DNA of 64,000 nt from an uncultured Acetatifactor sp. (GTDB taxonomy: Bacteria > Bacillota > Clostridia > Lachnospirales > Lachnospiraceae), in the NCBI GenBank assembly GCA_947625675.1, contig CANQPH010000010.1, forward strand, positions 1-64,000, read 5' to 3'. Under the pieces are notes generated by a model. The model was not told the origin of the DNA. It made no database searches and saw only the letters and a list, made by a program, of their open reading frames with translations. A program made the position numbers and the translations under genes. Positions 16,093 through 52,265 of this stretch are shown here, in pieces; position 1 is the first letter of the stretch; every line of letters begins with the position of its first letter.

Positions 16093-18597
16093 TTACAGCC
16101 AAGAATCCCAGAAGCGTTCCACCCTTTTGGCCACGGTATCCACCGTCACCGCCTGGAAGGATTCCCACTCTCTGGGGAACAGTTTTCGATAAGAAAACTG
16201 CAGAAACCTTTCATCCAAAAGGGCGATGATCCCCACGTCCTGAACGGTTCGAATCACCCTGCCCGCCGCCTGCAGCACCTTGTTCATGCCGGGATAACGG
16301 TAGGAATAATCGAATCCGTCCTCCCCGTTTTGGTTGAAATAATCCTTTAGCAATTCCCGCTCACAACAGACCTGGGGGATTCCGGTTCCCACCACGATCA
16401 CCCCGATCAGCCGGTCGTTTTTCAGGTCGATGCCTTCGCTGAAGATTCCTCCCAGCACGCAGAATCCCAGAAGGATATGCTCCTCCTCATCCTCCTGGAA
16501 CCGATCCAGGAAGGCCTCCCGGGCCTCTTCCCCCATGAAATCCTCCTGCAGCAGGCACTCCTTCCCCTCCCCGCCGAAATTCTCCTGATAGATCTCGTAG
16601 ACGTTCTGCATAAAGGCATAGGAAGGGAAAAACACCATGTAATTCCCATGACGGTTTTTCACGATTTCATCGATGTATCTGGCGATCCTCAAAAATTCTT
16701 CTTCAGATCGCCTGGTGTATTTGCTGGTCACGTCCTTGGCGATGAAGATGGCCCTTTTCTCCGGGGAAAAAACGGATTTGGCATAGACCTCGTAATCCTC
16801 CTTTTCTCCTCCCAGCAGGCCCTTGTAATATTGGATGGGCAGGAAAGTGGCGGAAAAAAGAATGGCGCTGCGGCCCCTTCCCATGCATTCCTGCAAATTT
16901 CTGGCGGGATTCACGCAAAAAAGCTTCACCAGGAAATGACCGTCTTCTCCCAGCCTCGTGTATTTCACGTAATTTTCATCCGCCCTCTCGTAAATATCCA
17001 GGAAATGCCGGAGTTTAAAATAAAAATCCAGAATCCTTTCCCGGATCTCGAGGCCGCCTTCCTCCTGCTCCTCCAGGTAGTCCCCCATCACGGAATGGAG
17101 CCAAATGCAGGCTTGCACCAGGGCGCCGAAATCGCTTTCGCCGGACTCCCCGCCAGTCTCTCCGCCAGTCCCGTCCAGCACCTTCCAGTCCCGGCACTCC
17201 CGTTTCAGGGCCAGCATGGCCTTATTGCAGCGTTCCAGCTGCCTTTCCATCCGCAAGGCATACCCCCCTTTTATCAGGACGGAGCGCCCCGCACTGCGGG
17301 CCTGATTTCCTACTGATTCTCCCTTTTCGGGCTCTGTCGTCCCCCGTGTTTCCTCTTTCTCCTCATCCAGAAGCTTCCCAAGCTCCCGTTTCAGCTCCAG
17401 GATCTCCTCCTTCACCAATGCGGCGCTGTACATCTCCCGGCCCCGCTCCAACAGATTGTGGGCCTCGTCTATGAGAAAAATATAATTTCCGTCGGAAGAA
17501 TCTCCGAAAAACCGCCGCAGATAGACATGGGGGTCGAAGAGGTAATTGTAATCACAGATGATACCGTCCGCAAACAAGCTCATGTCCAGGCACATCTCAA
17601 AGGGACATACCGTATGCTTCCCCGCATATTCCTCCACTTTTTCCCGGGAAAAGCTTTCCTCGTGCACCAGGAAATCATAAATGGCGTCGTTGACCCGGTC
17701 ATAGTGCCCCTTGGCGTAGGGACAATGCTCCGGATCGCACTCCACCTGCTCCAGGAAGCAGATTTTCTCTTTGGCAGTGAGCACCACGCTTTTGAAGCGC
17801 AGGCCCTGCTGCCGCAGCAGACGAAAAGTATCCTCCGCCACCGTCCTGGTAATGGTCTTGGCCGTAAGATAAAAGATCCGATCCCCCATGCCTTTTTCCA
17901 TGGCCTTCACCGCCGGAAACAGGGTGGAAACGGTCTTGCCCACGCCGGTGGGGGCCTCCAGGAACAGTTTTTTCTTATGATAAATGGTCTGATAGACATA
18001 AGTCACCAGTTCCCTCTGCCCATCCCTATAAGGGAAAGGAAATTCCAGCTGCCGGATGGAGGCCGCCCTGGCCTGGCGCCACTCCCAGGCGTAATCCGAC
18101 CACCGCCTGTATTCCTCCAGAAGCCAGTCGAACCATTCCTTCAGCACCTCCATAGGGTGTTCCTCCTGGAAATACCGAATGTCCTCGGTCTCCAGGTTGC
18201 AGTAGGTCATTCGCACCCGGATCTGAGACAGGCCTTCCCGACTCCCATAAATATAAGCGTAACAGCGGGCCTGGGCCAAATGCACCAATATAGGTTCCTT
18301 CATGCGGGCCACGTCCCGGTAAGTTCCCTTGATCTCGTCCACGGTTTTGACGCCGTCTTCCGTAAAAATGCCGTCCGCTCGGCCCTCCACCACCAGATCG
18401 TAATGTTCCGCAGGATGCACGTATTTCAAAGGCACCTCCGCCCGATAATCCCCGCCCTGCCGCTTCTGTATCATCCGGTGAATCCTGCTGCCTTCCTGCA
18501 TGGCATCCTCCGTCCCGCTCCCCCGGCGATTGTCAATATCGCCTTGCCGGAGCAGGAACTCCACCAGACTCCGAACCGATATCCTGACTTCTTCCAT
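16093..18597 (-). CDS. DinG/XPD-type ATP-dependent helicase with N-terminal PD-(D/E)XK nuclease domain
   Basis: The N-terminal 180 residues contain RADGIF and DEIKG spaced as in a PD-(D/E)XK (Cas4/RecB-like) nuclease core. The rest is a superfamily 2 helicase: Walker A EAPTGVGKT (about 214-222), the DEAH box LIDEAHNL, and four cysteines between them (CFLEQVEC, HC, CPFEMC) that fit the XPD/DinG iron-sulfur cluster. An acidic low-complexity insertion (ETRGTTEPEKGESVGN region) separates helicase blocks. Such fusions are thought to act in repair of damaged or structured DNA. The ATG at 18597 follows GGGGAGG. A 39-bp repeat array lies in its leader. Confidence 0.88.
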   Translation of the reverse strand: MEEVRISVRSLVEFLLRQGDIDNRRGSGTEDAMQEGSRIHRMIQKRQGGDYRAEVPLKYVHPAEHYDLVVEGRADGIFTEDGVKTVDEIKGTYRDVARMKEPILVHLAQARCYAYIYGSREGLSQIRVRMTYCNLETEDIRYFQEEHPMEVLKEWFDWLLEEYRRWSDYAWEWRQARAASIRQLEFPFPYRDGQRELVTYVYQTIYHKKKLFLEAPTGVGKTVSTLFPAVKAMEKGMGDRIFYLTAKTITRTVAEDTFRLLRQQGLRFKSVVLTAKEKICFLEQVECDPEHCPYAKGHYDRVNDAIYDFLVHEESFSREKVEEYAGKHTVCPFEMCLDMSLFADGIICDYNYLFDPHVYLRRFFGDSSDGNYIFLIDEAHNLLERGREMYSAALVKEEILELKRELGKLLDEEKEETRGTTEPEKGESVGNQARSAGRSVLIKGGYALRMERQLERCNKAMLALKRECRDWKVLDGTGGETGGESGESDFGALVQACIWLHSVMGDYLEEQEEGGLEIRERILDFYFKLRHFLDIYERADENYVKYTRLGEDGHFLVKLFCVNPARNLQECMGRGRSAILFSATFLPIQYYKGLLGGEKEDYEVYAKSVFSPEKRAIFIAKDVTSKYTRRSEEEFLRIARYIDEIVKNRHGNYMVFFPSYAFMQNVYEIYQENFGGEGKECLLQEDFMGEEAREAFLDRFQEDEEEHILLGFCVLGGIFSEGIDLKNDRLIGVIVVGTGIPQVCCERELLKDYFNQNGEDGFDYSYRYPGMNKVLQAAGRVIRTVQDVGIIALLDERFLQFSYRKLFPREWESFQAVTVDTVAKRVERFWDSWL

Positions 18598-18670
18598 CAA
18601 CGCCTCCCCCGTCCCTCGAAATCAAAGCTCCCAGATTCTCCGGAAAGCTTTCAAATCTTCTCAACCATGG

Positions 18671-18876: not shown

Positions 18877-18903
18877 CTCATTCCATAGTCCCATGTGTCT
18901 ACA

Positions 18904-19128
18904 TTAGCTGGCAATTCTTTTCTTCTGCAAAAAACCTTCCAATTCTTCATTGTACCCATGGTAGGATACCGTAAGAGGTTTCGAGAAGTCCAGACCATAT
19001 ACCCCAAGGAATGACTTGGCATCCACTACGTAGCGATTGTAGAAGATATCAATGTCAAAATCACATTTGGAAGTCACATTTACAAAATTCTGGACCTCAC
19101 CTGGTGTTAGCTTGATCGTCCTTTGCAT
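18904..19128 (-). CDS. HPr-like fold protein without the phosphorylated histidine
   Basis: The roughly 74-residue product resembles PTS phosphocarrier HPr: a helix (PGEVQNFVNVTSKCDFDIDI) and the VDAKSFLGVYGL motif equivalent to the HPr AKSILGVMTL region, ending in ELEGFLQK. The active-site His-15 region (GLHARPA in HPr) is replaced by KLTPGEVQNF, so phosphotransfer via His is not possible. Such proteins are common in Lachnospiraceae and their role is unknown; the regulatory serine of AKS is kept. Two in-frame ATGs (19131, 19128) follow GGAAGG; the second has better spacing. Confidence 0.7.
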   Translation of the reverse strand: MQRTIKLTPGEVQNFVNVTSKCDFDIDIFYNRYVVDAKSFLGVYGLDFSKPLTVSYHGYNEELEGFLQKKRIAS

Positions 19129-19219
19129 CATAATCCTTCCTTTCAAATGCAGTTTCCCTCATTACTAATGAATTATACACATTTCCTGTAAATTGTAAAG
19201 ACCTATTTTGTCCCAAAAA

Positions 19220-20035
19220 TCAGAACTCTGTCATATATCCCCGAAATCTCAGAGGAAGCAGGTTTCTCTGCAGCTCCAGGTTCCAGCGCTCTTCAATAGC
19301 TATAGTACGGCAGAAGCACCGAAACAGTTCCTGTATCTCCTCCTCTCCTGCGGAAAACATCAGCCTTTCTCTCGTTTGCCTCAAAGGCGCAGTTCCCCGC
19401 TCTTCAATCGACTCCCCTTCCGCTCCTGCCCGCAAAAAAATCTGCCCGCTCTGCACCAGAAACCACTCTTTCCCCACCGGATGGACGCCGCACAATCCTC
19501 TGGGCTCGTCCTGGATCAGGAAGTTTTCCTCTGGAAAACGATCTGCGAAATGAGGCATCAAAAACGCCGTCAGGTCATTCTTCGGCCCAATCCGGGCATA
19601 GAGGATGCCTCCCTCCAATTCCTGGAAACGCAGGAATCCATAGAGATGATGCAGCTCGTTGCCAGCTCCCCTGGCCAGAGCGAAAGCCTTGTGGACGTCC
19701 GGATCCGCCAGGTCGTCAAACAAATGTCCCGGCCGGCAGCCTCTCCCCAGCCCCTTCGCAATCGTCCGATACGCCGCCTGCCCTTTATCTTCGGAAGGGG
19801 AGGCCAGACAGAGACAAAGGCTTTGAAGATCCTCTTCTCCAAAACGCCGTCTCAAAGTACGCAGCACTTTCTCCGCTTTTTCTTCCTCCACCGTCACGGG
19901 ACGGTCCTCGGCAAACAGAAGGGGATCCTCCGTCAGGCAGATCCTGGTATCCCGGGGATCGCATTTTTCCTCATAGGCCCGATATATCGCCGTGAAAATA
20001 CATTCCGGGCTGTCCTCACATCGGTAAGCAATCAT
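19220..20035 (-). CDS. DUF4130 / TIGR03915-family DNA metabolism protein
   Basis: The 271-residue protein matches the family (TIGR03915 with C-terminal DUF4130) that occurs almost always next to the TIGR03916 radical SAM protein. Visible landmarks are IAYRCEDSPECIFTAIYRAY at the start, the H-rich HLYGFLRFQEL segment in the middle, and the MPHFADRFPEENFLIQD block with a C-terminal LPLRFRGYMTEF. The biochemical activity is unknown but thought to be in DNA modification or repair. GTGAGGAAAT precedes the ATG, which overlaps the radical SAM stop by 20 bp, so the two are coupled. Confidence 0.85.
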   Translation of the reverse strand: MIAYRCEDSPECIFTAIYRAYEEKCDPRDTRICLTEDPLLFAEDRPVTVEEEKAEKVLRTLRRRFGEEDLQSLCLCLASPSEDKGQAAYRTIAKGLGRGCRPGHLFDDLADPDVHKAFALARGAGNELHHLYGFLRFQELEGGILYARIGPKNDLTAFLMPHFADRFPEENFLIQDEPRGLCGVHPVGKEWFLVQSGQIFLRAGAEGESIEERGTAPLRQTRERLMFSAGEEEIQELFRCFCRTIAIEERWNLELQRNLLPLRFRGYMTEF

Positions 20036-21401
20036 ATTTCCTCACATTCCGCCGCCGATCAGGCGGCACTTGACTCAAGGGGAGTTTGTGCAGGCCGTCT
20101 GCGAAGCTGGCGTCATCAAAAAGGGACATCTGCCTGTAGGTCATTCCATCGCTTCCGAGCCGGATGCGGTCCTCCTTCTCCGTCAGGTTCCTCACGATGG
20201 CATCTTCCTCCAGCTTCAGGGGATACATGAGCCTCCCGCCACAGGTAATAAAATAAACCGCCCGCTTCAGCACCACTCCGATCTTTTTCAGATCCTGGAA
20301 GTCCAGCTTTGCGCTCCTCCTGGCGGCCACGATGCGCCGGGCACTTTTCACCCCGATCCCGGGCACCCTCAGCAGCATCTCCAGGGAGGCTTTGTTCACT
20401 TCCACCGGGAACTGTTCCAGATGCCGCACCGCCCAATCCTCCTTGGGATCCAGCAGCACGTTGAAAAAGGGCCTCTCTTCGTCCAACAGTTCCTCCGCCT
20501 CGAAGCCGTAAAACCGCAGCAGGAAATCCGCCTGATACAGGCGATGTTCCCGGAGCAGGGGCGGCCCTCCCGGCAAGGCGGGCAGAGAAGCGTCCTGGTT
20601 CACGTTCACGAAGGCGGAATAAAACACCCTTTTCAATTCAAACTTGCGGTACAGACTCTCCGCCACCTTGAGAATCTGGTAATCGTTTTCCTGGGTGGCC
20701 CCGATGATCATCTGCGTGGACTGCCCGCCGGACACAAAGCGGGGGGCATGCCGGTAAACTGTGAGTTCATTTTGATTCACCTGAATTCCCGTCTGAATCT
20801 GGCGCATGGGGCCCAAGATATTCTTCCGGTGCTTGTTGGGGGCCAGCAAGCGCAGTCCCTCCGCCGTGGGCAGCTCCAGATTGACGCTCATGCGGTCCGC
20901 CAGAAACCCGGCCCTCCGTATCAGTTCCCCGTCCGCTCCCGGGATGGCCTTCACATGAATATATCCTTGAAAACGATACTTCCCCCGCAACAGAGCCAGG
21001 GTCCGGCAGAGCAGCTCCATGGTGCAATCCGGGCTGTTCACGATGCCGGAACTCAAAAACAGACCTTCTATATAGTTCCTCCGATAAAATTCCATGGTCA
21101 GGGTACAGATCTCCTCCGGGGTGAAAATCGCCCTGGGAACATCATTGGAACGCCGGTTCAGACAATATTTACAGTCATAGATGCATTCGTTGGTCATCAG
21201 GATCTTCAGCAGGGAAATACACCGGCCATCGCTGCTGAAGCTGTGACAGATCCCCATTTTCAGACAATTCCCCACGCCGGTCCCCGTCCCCTGCCGCTCC
21301 ACCCCGCTGGAAGTGCAGGCCACGTCATATTTGGCCGCATCCGACAGGATCGCAAGCTTCTCCATCAGACTGCGGGTGCTCCCGTTTGCCAGATATTCCA
21401 T
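20016..21401 (-). CDS. Putative DNA modification/repair radical SAM protein (TIGR03916)
   Basis: The start at 21401 follows GGGAGGG. Residues 73-80 (CIYDCKYC) form the CX3CX2C radical-SAM cluster motif. The C-terminal part contains a helix-hairpin-helix (LLRVPGIGVKSARRIVAARR), a non-specific DNA-binding element. Family members pair with the downstream DUF4130 protein and are predicted to act on DNA. The last ~25 residues after LFDDASF are encoded by a dispersed repeat and are probably a non-native tail. A LexA-type box at the promoter suggests SOS control. Confidence 0.88.
   Translation of the reverse strand: MEYLANGSTRSLMEKLAILSDAAKYDVACTSSGVERQGTGTGVGNCLKMGICHSFSSDGRCISLLKILMTNECIYDCKYCLNRRSNDVPRAIFTPEEICTLTMEFYRRNYIEGLFLSSGIVNSPDCTMELLCRTLALLRGKYRFQGYIHVKAIPGADGELIRRAGFLADRMSVNLELPTAEGLRLLAPNKHRKNILGPMRQIQTGIQVNQNELTVYRHAPRFVSGGQSTQMIIGATQENDYQILKVAESLYRKFELKRVFYSAFVNVNQDASLPALPGGPPLLREHRLYQADFLLRFYGFEAEELLDEERPFFNVLLDPKEDWAVRHLEQFPVEVNKASLEMLLRVPGIGVKSARRIVAARRSAKLDFQDLKKIGVVLKRAVYFITCGGRLMYPLKLEEDAIVRNLTEKEDRIRLGSDGMTYRQMSLFDDASFADGLHKLPLSQVPPDRRRNVRKYDCLPM
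20045..20090 (-). repeat. Dispersed intercistronic repeat, copy B
   Basis: Minus-strand order is CACAAACTC, TTGAGTCAA, a GC hairpin (GCCGCC-5-GGCGGC, 20051-20067), GAATG, then GAGG ahead of the DUF4130 start. It matches copy A at 12376-12435 almost base for base over about 30 bp. It also encodes the C-terminal tail of the radical SAM protein. Confidence 0.7.
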
Positions 21402-21411
21402 GATACCCTCC

Positions 21412-21508
21412 CTTCCGGAGCGTTTATGCGGCGGTGGCAAAGACGGGTCTTCACCTCGTCTCGAGAAATTTGCGAATGCGATTTCTTATCCGCCATCAAA
21501 ACAATTTG
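21412..21508 (-). repeat. Dispersed RBS-bearing repeat, family 2, copy 1
   Basis: Shares TTCCGGAGCGTT, TTCACCTCGTCTCGA and GAGAAATTTGCGAATGCGAT, CCGCCATCAAAACAATTTGT blocks with 52057-52197. In both places the block ends in the GGAGG ribosome binding site of a minus-strand gene (radical SAM here, pyrK there). Confidence 0.65.
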
Positions 21509-21570
21509 TCATAGTTCGTAAGTTATCACAAAAATGCTTGCATTTATTTGTGATAACCTTAGAACTATGA
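21509..21570. repeat. 62-bp near-perfect palindrome
   Basis: The arms TCATAGTTC...GTTATCACAAA and TTTGTGATAAC...GAACTATGA pair at 21 of 24 positions around a 14-base loop that is itself palindromic (AATGC/GCATT). It lies in the leader of the radical SAM gene and could be a small mobile palindrome or an RNA hairpin that controls the downstream genes. Confidence 0.7.
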
Positions 21571-21606
21571 TTTGTGACGCCCCTCACAAATTACCTAGCC
21601 ATAACA

Positions 21607-21654
21607 GAACATATGTTCTATTTACAGCATAGCACACTCAATGGAAGATTGCAA
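21607..21654 (-). promoter_or_regulatory. Promoter with LexA/DinR-type SOS box
   Basis: On the minus strand TTGCAA (21649-21654) and TATGCT (21626-21631) are 17 bp apart. Directly downstream, GAACATATGTTC (21607-21618) is a perfect GAAC-N4-GTTC palindrome, the Firmicute LexA (DinR) consensus, sitting on the predicted transcription start. It controls the radical SAM-DUF4130 pair. Confidence 0.7.
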
Positions 21655-21678
21655 GACCCATTTTTCTTCAAAAAACTA

Positions 21679-21707
21679 TTGCAAAATCTGTCCAAAAGGG
21701 GTTAAAT
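21679..21707 (+). promoter_or_regulatory. asnA promoter
   Basis: TTGCAA (21679-21684) and TTAAAT (21702-21707) with a 17-bp spacer place the transcript start about 27 bases before the asnA ATG. No T-box or other leader structure fits in that distance. Confidence 0.6.
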
Positions 21708-21740
21708 ATTACTGTGAAAACCAAGAAAGCAGGTGTTTTT

Positions 21741-22751
21741 ATGCCAACCTTAAGTTTACCATCCAATTATCATTCCGATCTGAATCTGTATGAGACTCAG
21801 ATCGCCATCAAGACCGTGAAGGATTTTTTCCAGTCCATGCTGTCCAAGCAGCTGCAGCTTTTGCGGGTCACCGCCCCCTTATTCGTGGATCCGGAAACCG
21901 GTCTCAACGACAACCTGAACGGCGTGGAGCGTCCCGTGGCTTTTGATATCAAATATCAGGACGGACGAAATGCGGAGATCGTGCAGTCCTTGGCCAAATG
22001 GAAGCGTTATGCCCTGAAAAAATACGGTTTTTCCGTGGGAGAAGGCCTCTACACCGATATGAACGCCATCCGCCGGGACGAGGAAGCGGATCAGATCCAT
22101 TCCATTTACGTGGACCAGTGGGACTGGGAAAAAATCATCACCAAGGAAGAACGAACCCTGGACACCTTGAAGGACACCGTCAGGGAAATCTACAGCGTGC
22201 TGCGCAAGACGGAAAAATACATGTCCATTCATTATGATTACATCCAGGAAATTCTTCCCTATGATATTTTCTTCGTGACCACTCATGAGCTGGATGAGAT
22301 GTTCCCGGATTACACGCCGAAGGAAAGGGAATACTACATAGCGAAGGCCAAGGGAGCGGTCTGCATCATGCAGATCGGCGACAAACTGGAAAACGGCAAA
22401 CCTCATGACGGCCGGGCCCCGGACTACGACGACTGGGCGCTGAATGCGGATATCGTGGTGTACTATCCGGTTCTGGACATCGCCCTGGAGCTGTCCAGCA
22501 TGGGCATCCGGGTGGATAAGGAGTCCCTTCTTTCTCAGCTGGACAAGGCGGGATGCCCGGAACGGGCGAAGCTTCCTTTCCAGAAAGCCATCATCGACGA
22601 GGAACTTCCCTATACCATCGGCGGCGGCATCGGCCAGTCCCGCATCTGCATGTTCCTGCTGCGCAAGGCCCACATCGGGGAGGTACAGGCTTCCCTGTGG
22701 CCGGAGGAAACCATGGAAGAAGCCAGGAAAGCCGGGCTGCAATTGTTGTAA
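21741..22751 (+). CDS. asnA: Aspartate-ammonia ligase (asparagine synthetase A)
   Basis: This enzyme makes asparagine from aspartate, ammonia and ATP in the cytoplasm. The 336-residue protein aligns along its whole length with AsnA, a class II aminoacyl-tRNA-synthetase relative: GLNDNLNGVERPV, LAKWKRYALKKYGFSVGEGLYT, YVDQWDWEK, RAPDYDDW, LELSSMGIRVD and GGGIGQSRICMFLL are all present. ATG 21741 is chosen because the earlier in-frame GTG sits at the predicted transcript start. It is a single-gene unit between its own promoter and a strong terminator. Together with gltBD next door it forms an ammonia-assimilation neighbourhood. Confidence 0.96.
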   Translation: MPTLSLPSNYHSDLNLYETQIAIKTVKDFFQSMLSKQLQLLRVTAPLFVDPETGLNDNLNGVERPVAFDIKYQDGRNAEIVQSLAKWKRYALKKYGFSVGEGLYTDMNAIRRDEEADQIHSIYVDQWDWEKIITKEERTLDTLKDTVREIYSVLRKTEKYMSIHYDYIQEILPYDIFFVTTHELDEMFPDYTPKEREYYIAKAKGAVCIMQIGDKLENGKPHDGRAPDYDDWALNADIVVYYPVLDIALELSSMGIRVDKESLLSQLDKAGCPERAKLPFQKAIIDEELPYTIGGGIGQSRICMFLLRKAHIGEVQASLWPEETMEEARKAGLQLL

Positions 22752-51218: not shown

Positions 51219-52049
51219 TCAGATTTCCACGTCCTTCGCCTCGAAGACCGGCCCTTCCGTGCAGATCCGGGCGTTGTTCACATGGGAATGGGCGTCCTTT
51301 TCCACGGTCTTCACCACGCAGCCCAGACAGGCCCCCACCCCGCAGGCCATATGTTCCTCCAGGGAAATATAAGCCGGGATCCCCTTACTTTCCGCATAGC
51401 GTTTGATGGCCCGGAGCATGGGCATGGGGCCGCAGGCATAGATCACTTCCGCATCCAGGCCGTTTGCCGCAATGGCATCCATCACATTCCCCCTGGTGCC
51501 GGCGCTCCCGTCCTCCGTGGCCACGTAGAGCTCTCCCTGTTTCTCCAGATCCTCCGCCAGGAACAGATTGGAATCCCGATAACCCACGATGATCTGCTTA
51601 TGCGCCTCCAGCCGCCTGGCCAGCTCCAAAATGGGAGGGATGCCAATGCCGCCGCCCATGAGAAAGACCTTCCTGCCCCGTCCGGCCTCCAGCGGGAAGC
51701 CGTTGCCCAAAGGCCCCATGACCTCCACGGGTTCTCCCGCCAGATAGCCGGAAAACTCCGCCGTTCCCTTCCCTGCGACCCGGTATACCAGACGCAGGGC
51801 GCCTCGTCCGTCTCTTCCCCGCCTTTCAGCGCTTCCCGCCTCCGTGTTCCTTCCATCGGCCTTTAGGGCCTCCGCCACCTGACAGATGCTGATGGGCCTG
51901 GGCAGTAAGGTGCTCTTATCCCGGGGATAGACGCACAGGAATTGTCCCGGTTCGGCCTCCTTGGCCAGACTGGTCTCGATCCACATATCATAAATTCCGG
52001 GCCCGATCTTCTCCTGGGAGAGAAGGACCGCCGTTTCCTTTTTCTTCAT
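51219..52049 (-). CDS. pyrK: Dihydroorotate dehydrogenase B, electron-transfer subunit
   Basis: PyrK carries FAD and a 2Fe-2S cluster and passes electrons from PyrD to NAD. The FAD site RPISIC, the NAD-binding GGGIGIPPILELA, and the cluster cysteines in MACGVGACLGCVVK and ARICTEGP are present. The start at 52049 follows GGAGG; the open frame upstream is inside a dispersed repeat. A short low-complexity insertion (about KADGRNTEAGSAERRGRDGR) sits in the FAD domain before LRLVYRV. Confidence 0.94.
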   Translation of the reverse strand: MKKKETAVLLSQEKIGPGIYDMWIETSLAKEAEPGQFLCVYPRDKSTLLPRPISICQVAEALKADGRNTEAGSAERRGRDGRGALRLVYRVAGKGTAEFSGYLAGEPVEVMGPLGNGFPLEAGRGRKVFLMGGGIGIPPILELARRLEAHKQIIVGYRDSNLFLAEDLEKQGELYVATEDGSAGTRGNVMDAIAANGLDAEVIYACGPMPMLRAIKRYAESKGIPAYISLEEHMACGVGACLGCVVKTVEKDAHSHVNNARICTEGPVFEAKDVEI

Positions 52050-52056
52050 ATCAACC

Positions 52057-52197
52057 TCCATTCCGGAGCGTTCACAAGACGAGGTTTCACCTCGTCTCGA
52101 CAAGGCTTCTCCCCGTCTCGACAAGGCTTCTCCCGCCCCGAGAAATTCGCAGATGCGATTCCTCATCTGCCATCAAAGCAATTTGTGACGCTCCGGC
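52057..52197 (-). repeat. Dispersed RBS-bearing repeat, family 2, copy 2
   Basis: Homologous blocks with 21412-21508: TTCCGGAGCGTT, TTTCACCTCGTCTCGA, GAGAAATTCGCAGATGCGAT and CCATCAAAGCAATTTGT. This copy also has an internal 21-bp tandem duplication (CGTCTCGACAAGGCTTCTCC at about 52092 and 52113). It ends in a CAATTTGTG/CACAAATTG inverted repeat at 52189-52205 and supplies the GGAGG of pyrK. Confidence 0.65.
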
Positions 52198-52265
52198 ACA
52201 AATTGTAAAATGAAAAGACTTCGACTTGCCCGCTTTCACAGACATCCACTCAAGAATTTAAAGGT

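Follow-up and report, generated by a model that had tools for sequence, protein, structure and literature searches.

Gene pair and predicted proteins

The analysed DNA (the window) was a stretch of 64,000 nucleotides from an uncultured Acetatifactor sp. of the family Lachnospiraceae. Two genes on the minus strand formed the pair described here.

20016..21401, minus strand, TIGR03916 radical SAM protein, 461 aa (682 bits; curated cut-off 343.5)
19220..20035, minus strand, TIGR03915/DUF4130 protein, 271 aa (181 bits; curated cut-off 112.25)

Both family models scored above their cut-offs, and the DUF4130 gene adjoined the radical SAM gene with an overlap of 20 bp. The start of the radical SAM gene was the ATG at 21401, preceded by a GGGAGGG ribosome-binding site. 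The encoded protein contained the motif CX3CX2C (C73, C77 and C80), three more invariant cysteines (C29, C52 and C61) and an HhH at residues 332-372. Its nearest named match, with 80% identity, came from an uncultured Lachnospiraceae bacterium. A sequence search of solved structures returned nothing but an HhH chain for the radical SAM protein, and no match at E≤1 for the DUF4130 protein. Spore photoproduct lyase was absent from 50 listed matches of further searches, an absence that excludes nothing.

The domain search of the 271-aa DUF4130 protein at E≤0.001 gave DUF4130/TIGR03915 only, and no uracil-DNA glycosylase domain, which would mark a UDG-linked base-excision operon, was found. Its predicted fold appeared to resemble DHH proteins, namely RecJ, Cdc45, NanoRNase and PAP phosphatase, and this predicted RecJ/Cdc45-like fold may serve as a first structural handle on DUF4130. 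Residues 6-12 followed the pattern C/Y-E/D-D/G-S/T-x-E/D-G in 45 sequences; D8 was D in 30 of the 45, and no column among these residues was invariant. The first motif was degenerate in DUF4130, without the conserved metal ligands of the DHH phosphoesterases (RecJ/NrnA), as judged by a general comparison with the DHH motif and not by a residue-by-residue alignment. We know of no activity assigned to the TIGR03916/TIGR03915 pair, and the NCBI names label both families 'putative'. The two proteins, a radical SAM core with an HhH motif and a partner with the predicted RecJ/Cdc45-type fold, probably act on damaged DNA.

Predicted promoter and predicted LexA operator

The following features were found upstream of the radical SAM gene.

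21606..21619, no strand assigned, predicted LexA operator AGAACATATGTTCT, a perfect 14-bp palindrome (from sequence and from conservation upstream of orthologues)
21607-21618, GAACN4GTTC core GAACATATGTTC, exact match, at about +1 to +12 of the predicted radical SAM promoter
21626..21654, minus strand, predicted promoter TTGCAA (21654-21649) - 17 - TATGCT (21631-21626), facing the radical SAM gene
21632..21643, minus strand, degenerate spacer box CATTGAGTGTGC, with the counterpart GAACATATGTGC in genome G022 (by-eye alignment of the leaders of the window and of locus L059)

The initial annotation had described a perfect GAAC-ATAT-GTTC box at 21607-21618, sitting on the predicted start of transcription behind TTGCAA-17-TATGCT. 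The box was found exactly there and extended to a palindrome of 14 bp, and because it follows directly behind the promoter it spans about +1 to +12. The promoter hexamers were weak; they matched at 8/12 positions in a manual count, under the threshold of the promoter scan, and TTGCAA-17-TATGCT was missing from the scan output. The layout was nevertheless kept in G022, a genome of the same genus, where TTGTCA-17-TAAACT is followed after 7 bases by GAACAAATGTTC (locus L059), so that the register of promoter and box is common to the two (by eye). G022 carries one box in the promoter spacer and another directly after the -10 hexamer. The window has the same plan, of which the perfect start-site box is retained and the spacer box is degenerate (by eye).

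The distance from the box to the ATG at 21401 was 205 bases, longer than in nearly all relatives. GAACN4GTTC occurred three times in the window (shuffle mean 0.74; 4 of 100 shuffles reached three), one of the other matches lying inside the radical SAM gene at 21148-21159. The pattern was present at 25 places in the whole genome compared to 28 for the reversed pattern, which is no enrichment. With a bare pattern this common a single box is weak evidence, and the strong evidence is its conservation at orthologues.

Conservation of the box in Firmicutes

TIGR03916 was matched in 91 of the 150 genomes of a family sample. Loci that included the gene start were retained, C-terminal fragments and weak matches were left out, and 89 loci including the window resulted; removal of locus L110, the sequence of which begins inside the gene, left 88 (87 from relatives and the window). 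Within 300 bp of the start, 87 of these 88 loci had a box that deviated from GAACN4GTTC at no more than one position, and 43 had an exact one. The corresponding averages over 40 rounds of dinucleotide shuffling were 8.0 (maximum 14) and 0.28 (maximum 2). In control DNA from -1100 to -900 the counts were 6/83 and 0/83, and in stretches within the gene 18/88 and 2/88. The one locus lacking a box was L105. When the interval was narrowed to 200 bp from the start, three family loci lacked a box, the window among them.

In a phylum sample, 65 of 299 genomes were above the TIGR03916 cut-off. Among the 65 upstream regions scored, two of them from one genome, 44 had a box at one mismatch or less and 15 an exact box (shuffles 4.7 and 0.15); 21 had no box at this threshold. 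A set of named genome contigs, partly of the same species and scored without shuffles, gave 62/80 and 40/80, with 18 loci lacking a box at one mismatch or less. Enrichment upstream of orthologous pairs, the absence of which the initial annotation had named as an argument against SOS control, was strong in family and phylum alike. Of the 233 promoters pooled from the overlapping sets, 96 carried two boxes and 84 a single one; three or four boxes were seen in 13, and 40 had no box. One or two boxes were usual in the Firmicutes relatives scored. Successive boxes were spaced 25-30 bp apart in 37 and 55-60 bp apart in 29 of 123 pooled distances.

Boxes at lexA and recA of the same genome

The genome's own lexA (TIGR00498) had a box, GAACGTTTGTTC, about 160 bp upstream of the first start codon in its frame. 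The recA of the genome, identified by sequence, had the two boxes GAACATTTGTTC and GAACAAATGTTT, one of them 128 bp upstream of the first ATG in its frame. Eight of the 25 genomic box places had no more than one G or C in the core, and a radical SAM, a lexA and a recA box were among these eight. The start was readable at nine of 19 recA loci, one of the nine being the own genome; each of the nine had a box at one mismatch or less, and six had an exact one. Two recA promoters of the same genus (L411 and L416) showed the two-box plan of G022 by eye.

By-eye inspection of the same genome gave further observations. The lexA box (L001, G000:C17, 1674-2245) is common to a divergent frame of 120 aa, perhaps a YneA-like division inhibitor. 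More LexA-like boxes with A/T-rich cores were seen at G000:C51:7794-7805, C74:10027-10038 and C78:127-138, one of them near a murA-like gene and another 52 bp upstream of a frame of 161 aa.

Plasmid copies and other LexA motifs

From 158 plasmid records with a homologue, of which 40 were listed, 17 were picked for variety. The reported alphaproteobacterial LexA motif is GAACN7GAAC (PMC8565304). Exact matches to it lay within 60 bp of the start in 7 of 12 alphaproteobacterial plasmid copies (average of 500 shuffles 0.018) and were missing from this interval in the other five. Within 300 bp the motif was present in 9/12, one of the two extra cases (L122) being located inside the upstream gene. 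The single betaproteobacterial copy (Caballeronia) had CTGTATAAACATACAG at -29. Betaproteobacteria, like E. coli, use a LexA motif of the CTGTN8ACAG type. The E. coli motif is reported as CTGTN8ACAG (PMC4234289). The Spirosoma plasmid copy had a GAACN4GTTC box with one mismatch, and the plasmid copies of Subdoligranulum (a Firmicute), Fusobacterium and Parabacteroides had no such box at one mismatch or less. The partner gene was annotated as UdgX family in 11 of 13 proteobacterial plasmid stretches; in the other two it was unannotated or the stretch ended before it. The presence of different LexA motifs at one and the same gene speaks for selection of SOS control.

Leader element between operator and start codon

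Nearly all of the stretch between the box and the ATG belonged to a dispersed, pseudoknotted leader element, with the following parts.

21399..21595, minus strand, dispersed leader element (DNA search, alignment and covariance model; limits of P1-P3 by eye)
21595-21585 with 21576-21570, resumed at 21509, minus strand, P1 hairpin
21510..21569, no strand assigned, 60-bp palindromic insert in P1, with ATTTGT repeats at 21504-21509 and 21570-21575
21485-21465, minus strand, P2
21462-21440, minus strand, P3
21423-21415, minus strand, 3' strand of the pseudoknot
21412-21406, minus strand, Shine-Dalgarno sequence; the element ends with the ATG at 21401-21399

A DNA search with 21402-21640 gave many partial copies in the own genome and some in relatives. 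Aligned in sense orientation, the copies terminated at the Shine-Dalgarno sequence and ATG of unrelated genes. The shared structure consisted of the P1 hairpin (about 11 bp) followed by P2, with a third hairpin in some copies, and the 9-base loop of P1 was complementary to a 9-base stretch that closely precedes the Shine-Dalgarno sequence. A covariance model based on 14 copies and a manually assigned structure matched the window only at 21399-21540, because the insert splits P1.

In the 14 copies 94.6% of cells paired, compared to 92.0% in shuffles and 30-50% with slid partners, and five pairs were changed on both sides (42 of 500 shuffles gave at least as many). The P1 loop and its distant partner covaried in 89 copies. 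The form CCGGAGCGT/ACGCTCCGG was seen in 23 of the 89, CCGAAGCGT/ACGCTTCGG in seven copies from five genomes, and GTCAGAGC/GCTCTGAC in seven copies that were all in one genome (G500). The longest pairing per copy was at least 8 bp in 75/89, against 27/89 in the reversed control. The leader RNA of the window folded at -74.7 kcal/mol compared to -50.4 kcal/mol for shuffles (z -6.5), a low energy that is partly due to the inserted palindrome.

The model found 23 copies in the own genome at E≤0.001, of which 10 were in the training set. Within the genus, 21 of 61 genomes including the own one had leader matches, with up to 48 copies in one genome; within the family, 26 of 150 had them at E≤0.0001. 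The limits and the insertion mechanism were read by hand. When 25 of the 30 own-genome matches were examined (five reverse or overlapping weak ones were left out), 19 ended within 3 bases of a start codon of an open frame. Across all genomes 89 of 102 matches were examined, leaving out the 13 weakest; 66 of the 89 lay at -5 to +1 of a start codon and 13 had no usable frame. Both fractions lean upward, because the finder preferred starts near the end of the model, which was itself set at the ATG, and neither these fractions nor the pairing counts allow for kinship among copies.

Among the 88 radical SAM loci (87 from relatives and the window) the leader was detected at E<0.1 in the window only. 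The own recA carries it shortly after the LexA box, and none of 18 other recA loci had it at E<0.1. The recA of G495 (L411) has 26 bases from box to ATG in place of the leader and looks like a site without the element. By eye, the leader also precedes pyk-, metG- and rsgA-like genes. It lies before unrelated genes and so may be neutral. The idea of a device specific to the SOS response was rejected on its absence from the 18 recA loci and on the mixed genes downstream.

Rfam 15 gave no match at E≤1 for 21300-21800 of the window. For 16 stretches with other leader copies seven matches at E≤5 were obtained, all far below the gathering scores, and a literature search for the element returned only unrelated papers. 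What is new here is a dispersed pseudoknotted leader, without an Rfam match, between a predicted SOS operator and its gene. The element itself is real and may influence translation. We suggest tentatively, and at somewhat less than even odds, that it represents an undescribed Lachnospiraceae family of dispersed pseudoknotted 5'-leaders, whose insertion at a site between the promoter and the start codon would equip captured genes, including recA and the radical SAM repair operon, with the ribosome-binding site of the element and with a further, translational level of control. If the leader regulates translation, it would be a portable control unit for many genes, recA among them. The element is separate from the SOS finding and may matter more.

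A second leader copy in the window was located at 52047-52209 on the minus strand, ending at an ATG near 52049 of a gene that is pyrK-like by eye. The palindrome recurred at G000:C78:3286-3352 with 99% identity over 67 bp; this copy has no ATTTGT repeats and precedes a cotJA-like gene (by eye). Tandem leader copies were seen by eye in L361-L364 and L366, with units of about 134-147 bp, the pseudoknot strands of which differ between units and match internally. In these copies the outer hairpin appears to pair an upstream start-like triplet (TTG, GTG or ATG) with its complement.

Proposed regulation and alternative explanations

Taken together, the sequence data are best explained by a LexA operator at 21606-21619 that covers the point where transcription of the radical SAM-DUF4130 operon is predicted to begin, with LexA as a block that DNA damage would release, proteins that probably act on damaged DNA, and a structured leader that may modulate translation. 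A probability of about 0.92 is given to this joint reading. SOS control of the pair, as proposed in the initial annotation, is strongly supported by the boxes at orthologues, the boxes at the genome's own lexA and recA and the lineage-specific LexA motifs. In undamaged cells, LexA bound at 21606-21619 would block RNA polymerase. As in established SOS biology, DNA damage would activate RecA, LexA would cleave itself, and the pair would be made. Since the leader lies between operator and ATG, the transcript would begin with a structured leader, which is supported as a structure and may modulate translation. SOS control that is conserved through changes of LexA motif ties the pair to DNA damage, and it indicates when activity of the pair should be looked for, i.e. 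after mitomycin C or UV.

It could be argued that LexA sets transcription but that the leader dominates the output at this locus, so that the pair is no longer a simple SOS gene. The leader folds far better than shuffles, has its own Shine-Dalgarno sequence, ends at the ATG and has received the 60-bp palindrome; however, part of the folding energy comes from that palindrome, and we consider dominance of the leader unlikely.

A LexA site that serves asnA, or both divergent genes, was considered very unlikely. The box does lie in the shared intergenic region, and asnA is divergent in G022 too. However, asnA has promoter-like hexamers of its own about 60 bp further on:

21679..21707, plus strand, predicted asnA promoter TTGCAA-17-TTAAAT (21679-21684 and 21702-21707), by eye, separate from the box

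Such hexamers were found in G022 as well (by eye). Within the limited flanks covered, an asnA match was found beside the pair in only 4/80 named and 3/88 family loci, yet the box was kept in 62/80 and 87/88. asnA as the target of the box was therefore rejected. The initial annotation had put the box about 130 bp from the asnA ATG and had judged it not placed to control this gene; the distance is 122 bases (ATG at 21741), and the two views agree.

That the box is a chance palindrome and the operon lies outside LexA control is even less probable and was rejected on the conservation footprint: the core is common in genome and window shuffles, but the orthologous promoters are far above shuffles and in-locus controls, a different LexA motif stands at this gene in several alphaproteobacterial copies and in the betaproteobacterial copy, and the box lies in the promoter register of G022.

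Comparison with published systems

LexA control has been proposed for CAC3343-CAC3344 of Clostridium acetobutylicum, the same kind of pair (PMC3828012). This is a prediction in one species, and its account there does not mention a leader element. Operator control alone is therefore known in kind. The initial annotation was right on SOS control, but it had missed this printed prediction as well as the dispersed leader that fills most of the interval.

COG4277 is presumably the TIGR03916 family. A COG1573-COG4277 operon belongs to the SOS network of Bacteroidetes and is cited as earlier known from Verrucomicrobia and Alphaproteobacteria (PMC8565304). As described there, it has LexA-type control like the pair in the window, but it includes a uracil-DNA glycosylase and other LexA motifs, whereas the DUF4130 protein of the window has no such domain. 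The Gram-positive core SOS regulon includes 'a radical SAM protein' of unspecified family, and Lachnospiraceae are not among the species listed (PMC7739468). In the human gut SOS meta-regulon, gut Firmicutes were scanned with the Gram-positive LexA motif; the COGs named do not include this pair, and the word 'radical' is absent from the main text (PMC3998124). LexA of Clostridium difficile has operators of the GAACN4GTTC/T type, like that of the window, and interacted with 16 of 20 tested fragments in SPR; 'radical' and 'hypothetical' are absent from the main text of that study (PMC4234289). In work on the SOS response, DUF4130 has been connected with uracil DNA glycosylases and SplB-like radical SAM proteins (PMC3765255); this contextual prediction concerns thymine modification and, as given there, includes neither operator nor fold. 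No report of SOS control of this pair across Lachnospiraceae was found in the open-licence papers searched.

Genes downstream of the pair

A DinG/Rad3-like helicase gene (16093-18600) was considered as a third gene of the operon and rejected, as a small frame with an 11/12 promoter match intervenes. A helicase match was found near the radical SAM gene in 12 of the 80 named loci, within the flanks covered. No box at one mismatch or less was present in the gap between the DUF4130 gene and the helicase, and the Pfam search found nothing in the 80-aa frame scanned at about 18900-19200. The small open frame in this interval, on the minus strand, appeared HPr-like by eye and is preceded by the promoter TTTACA-16-TATAAT.
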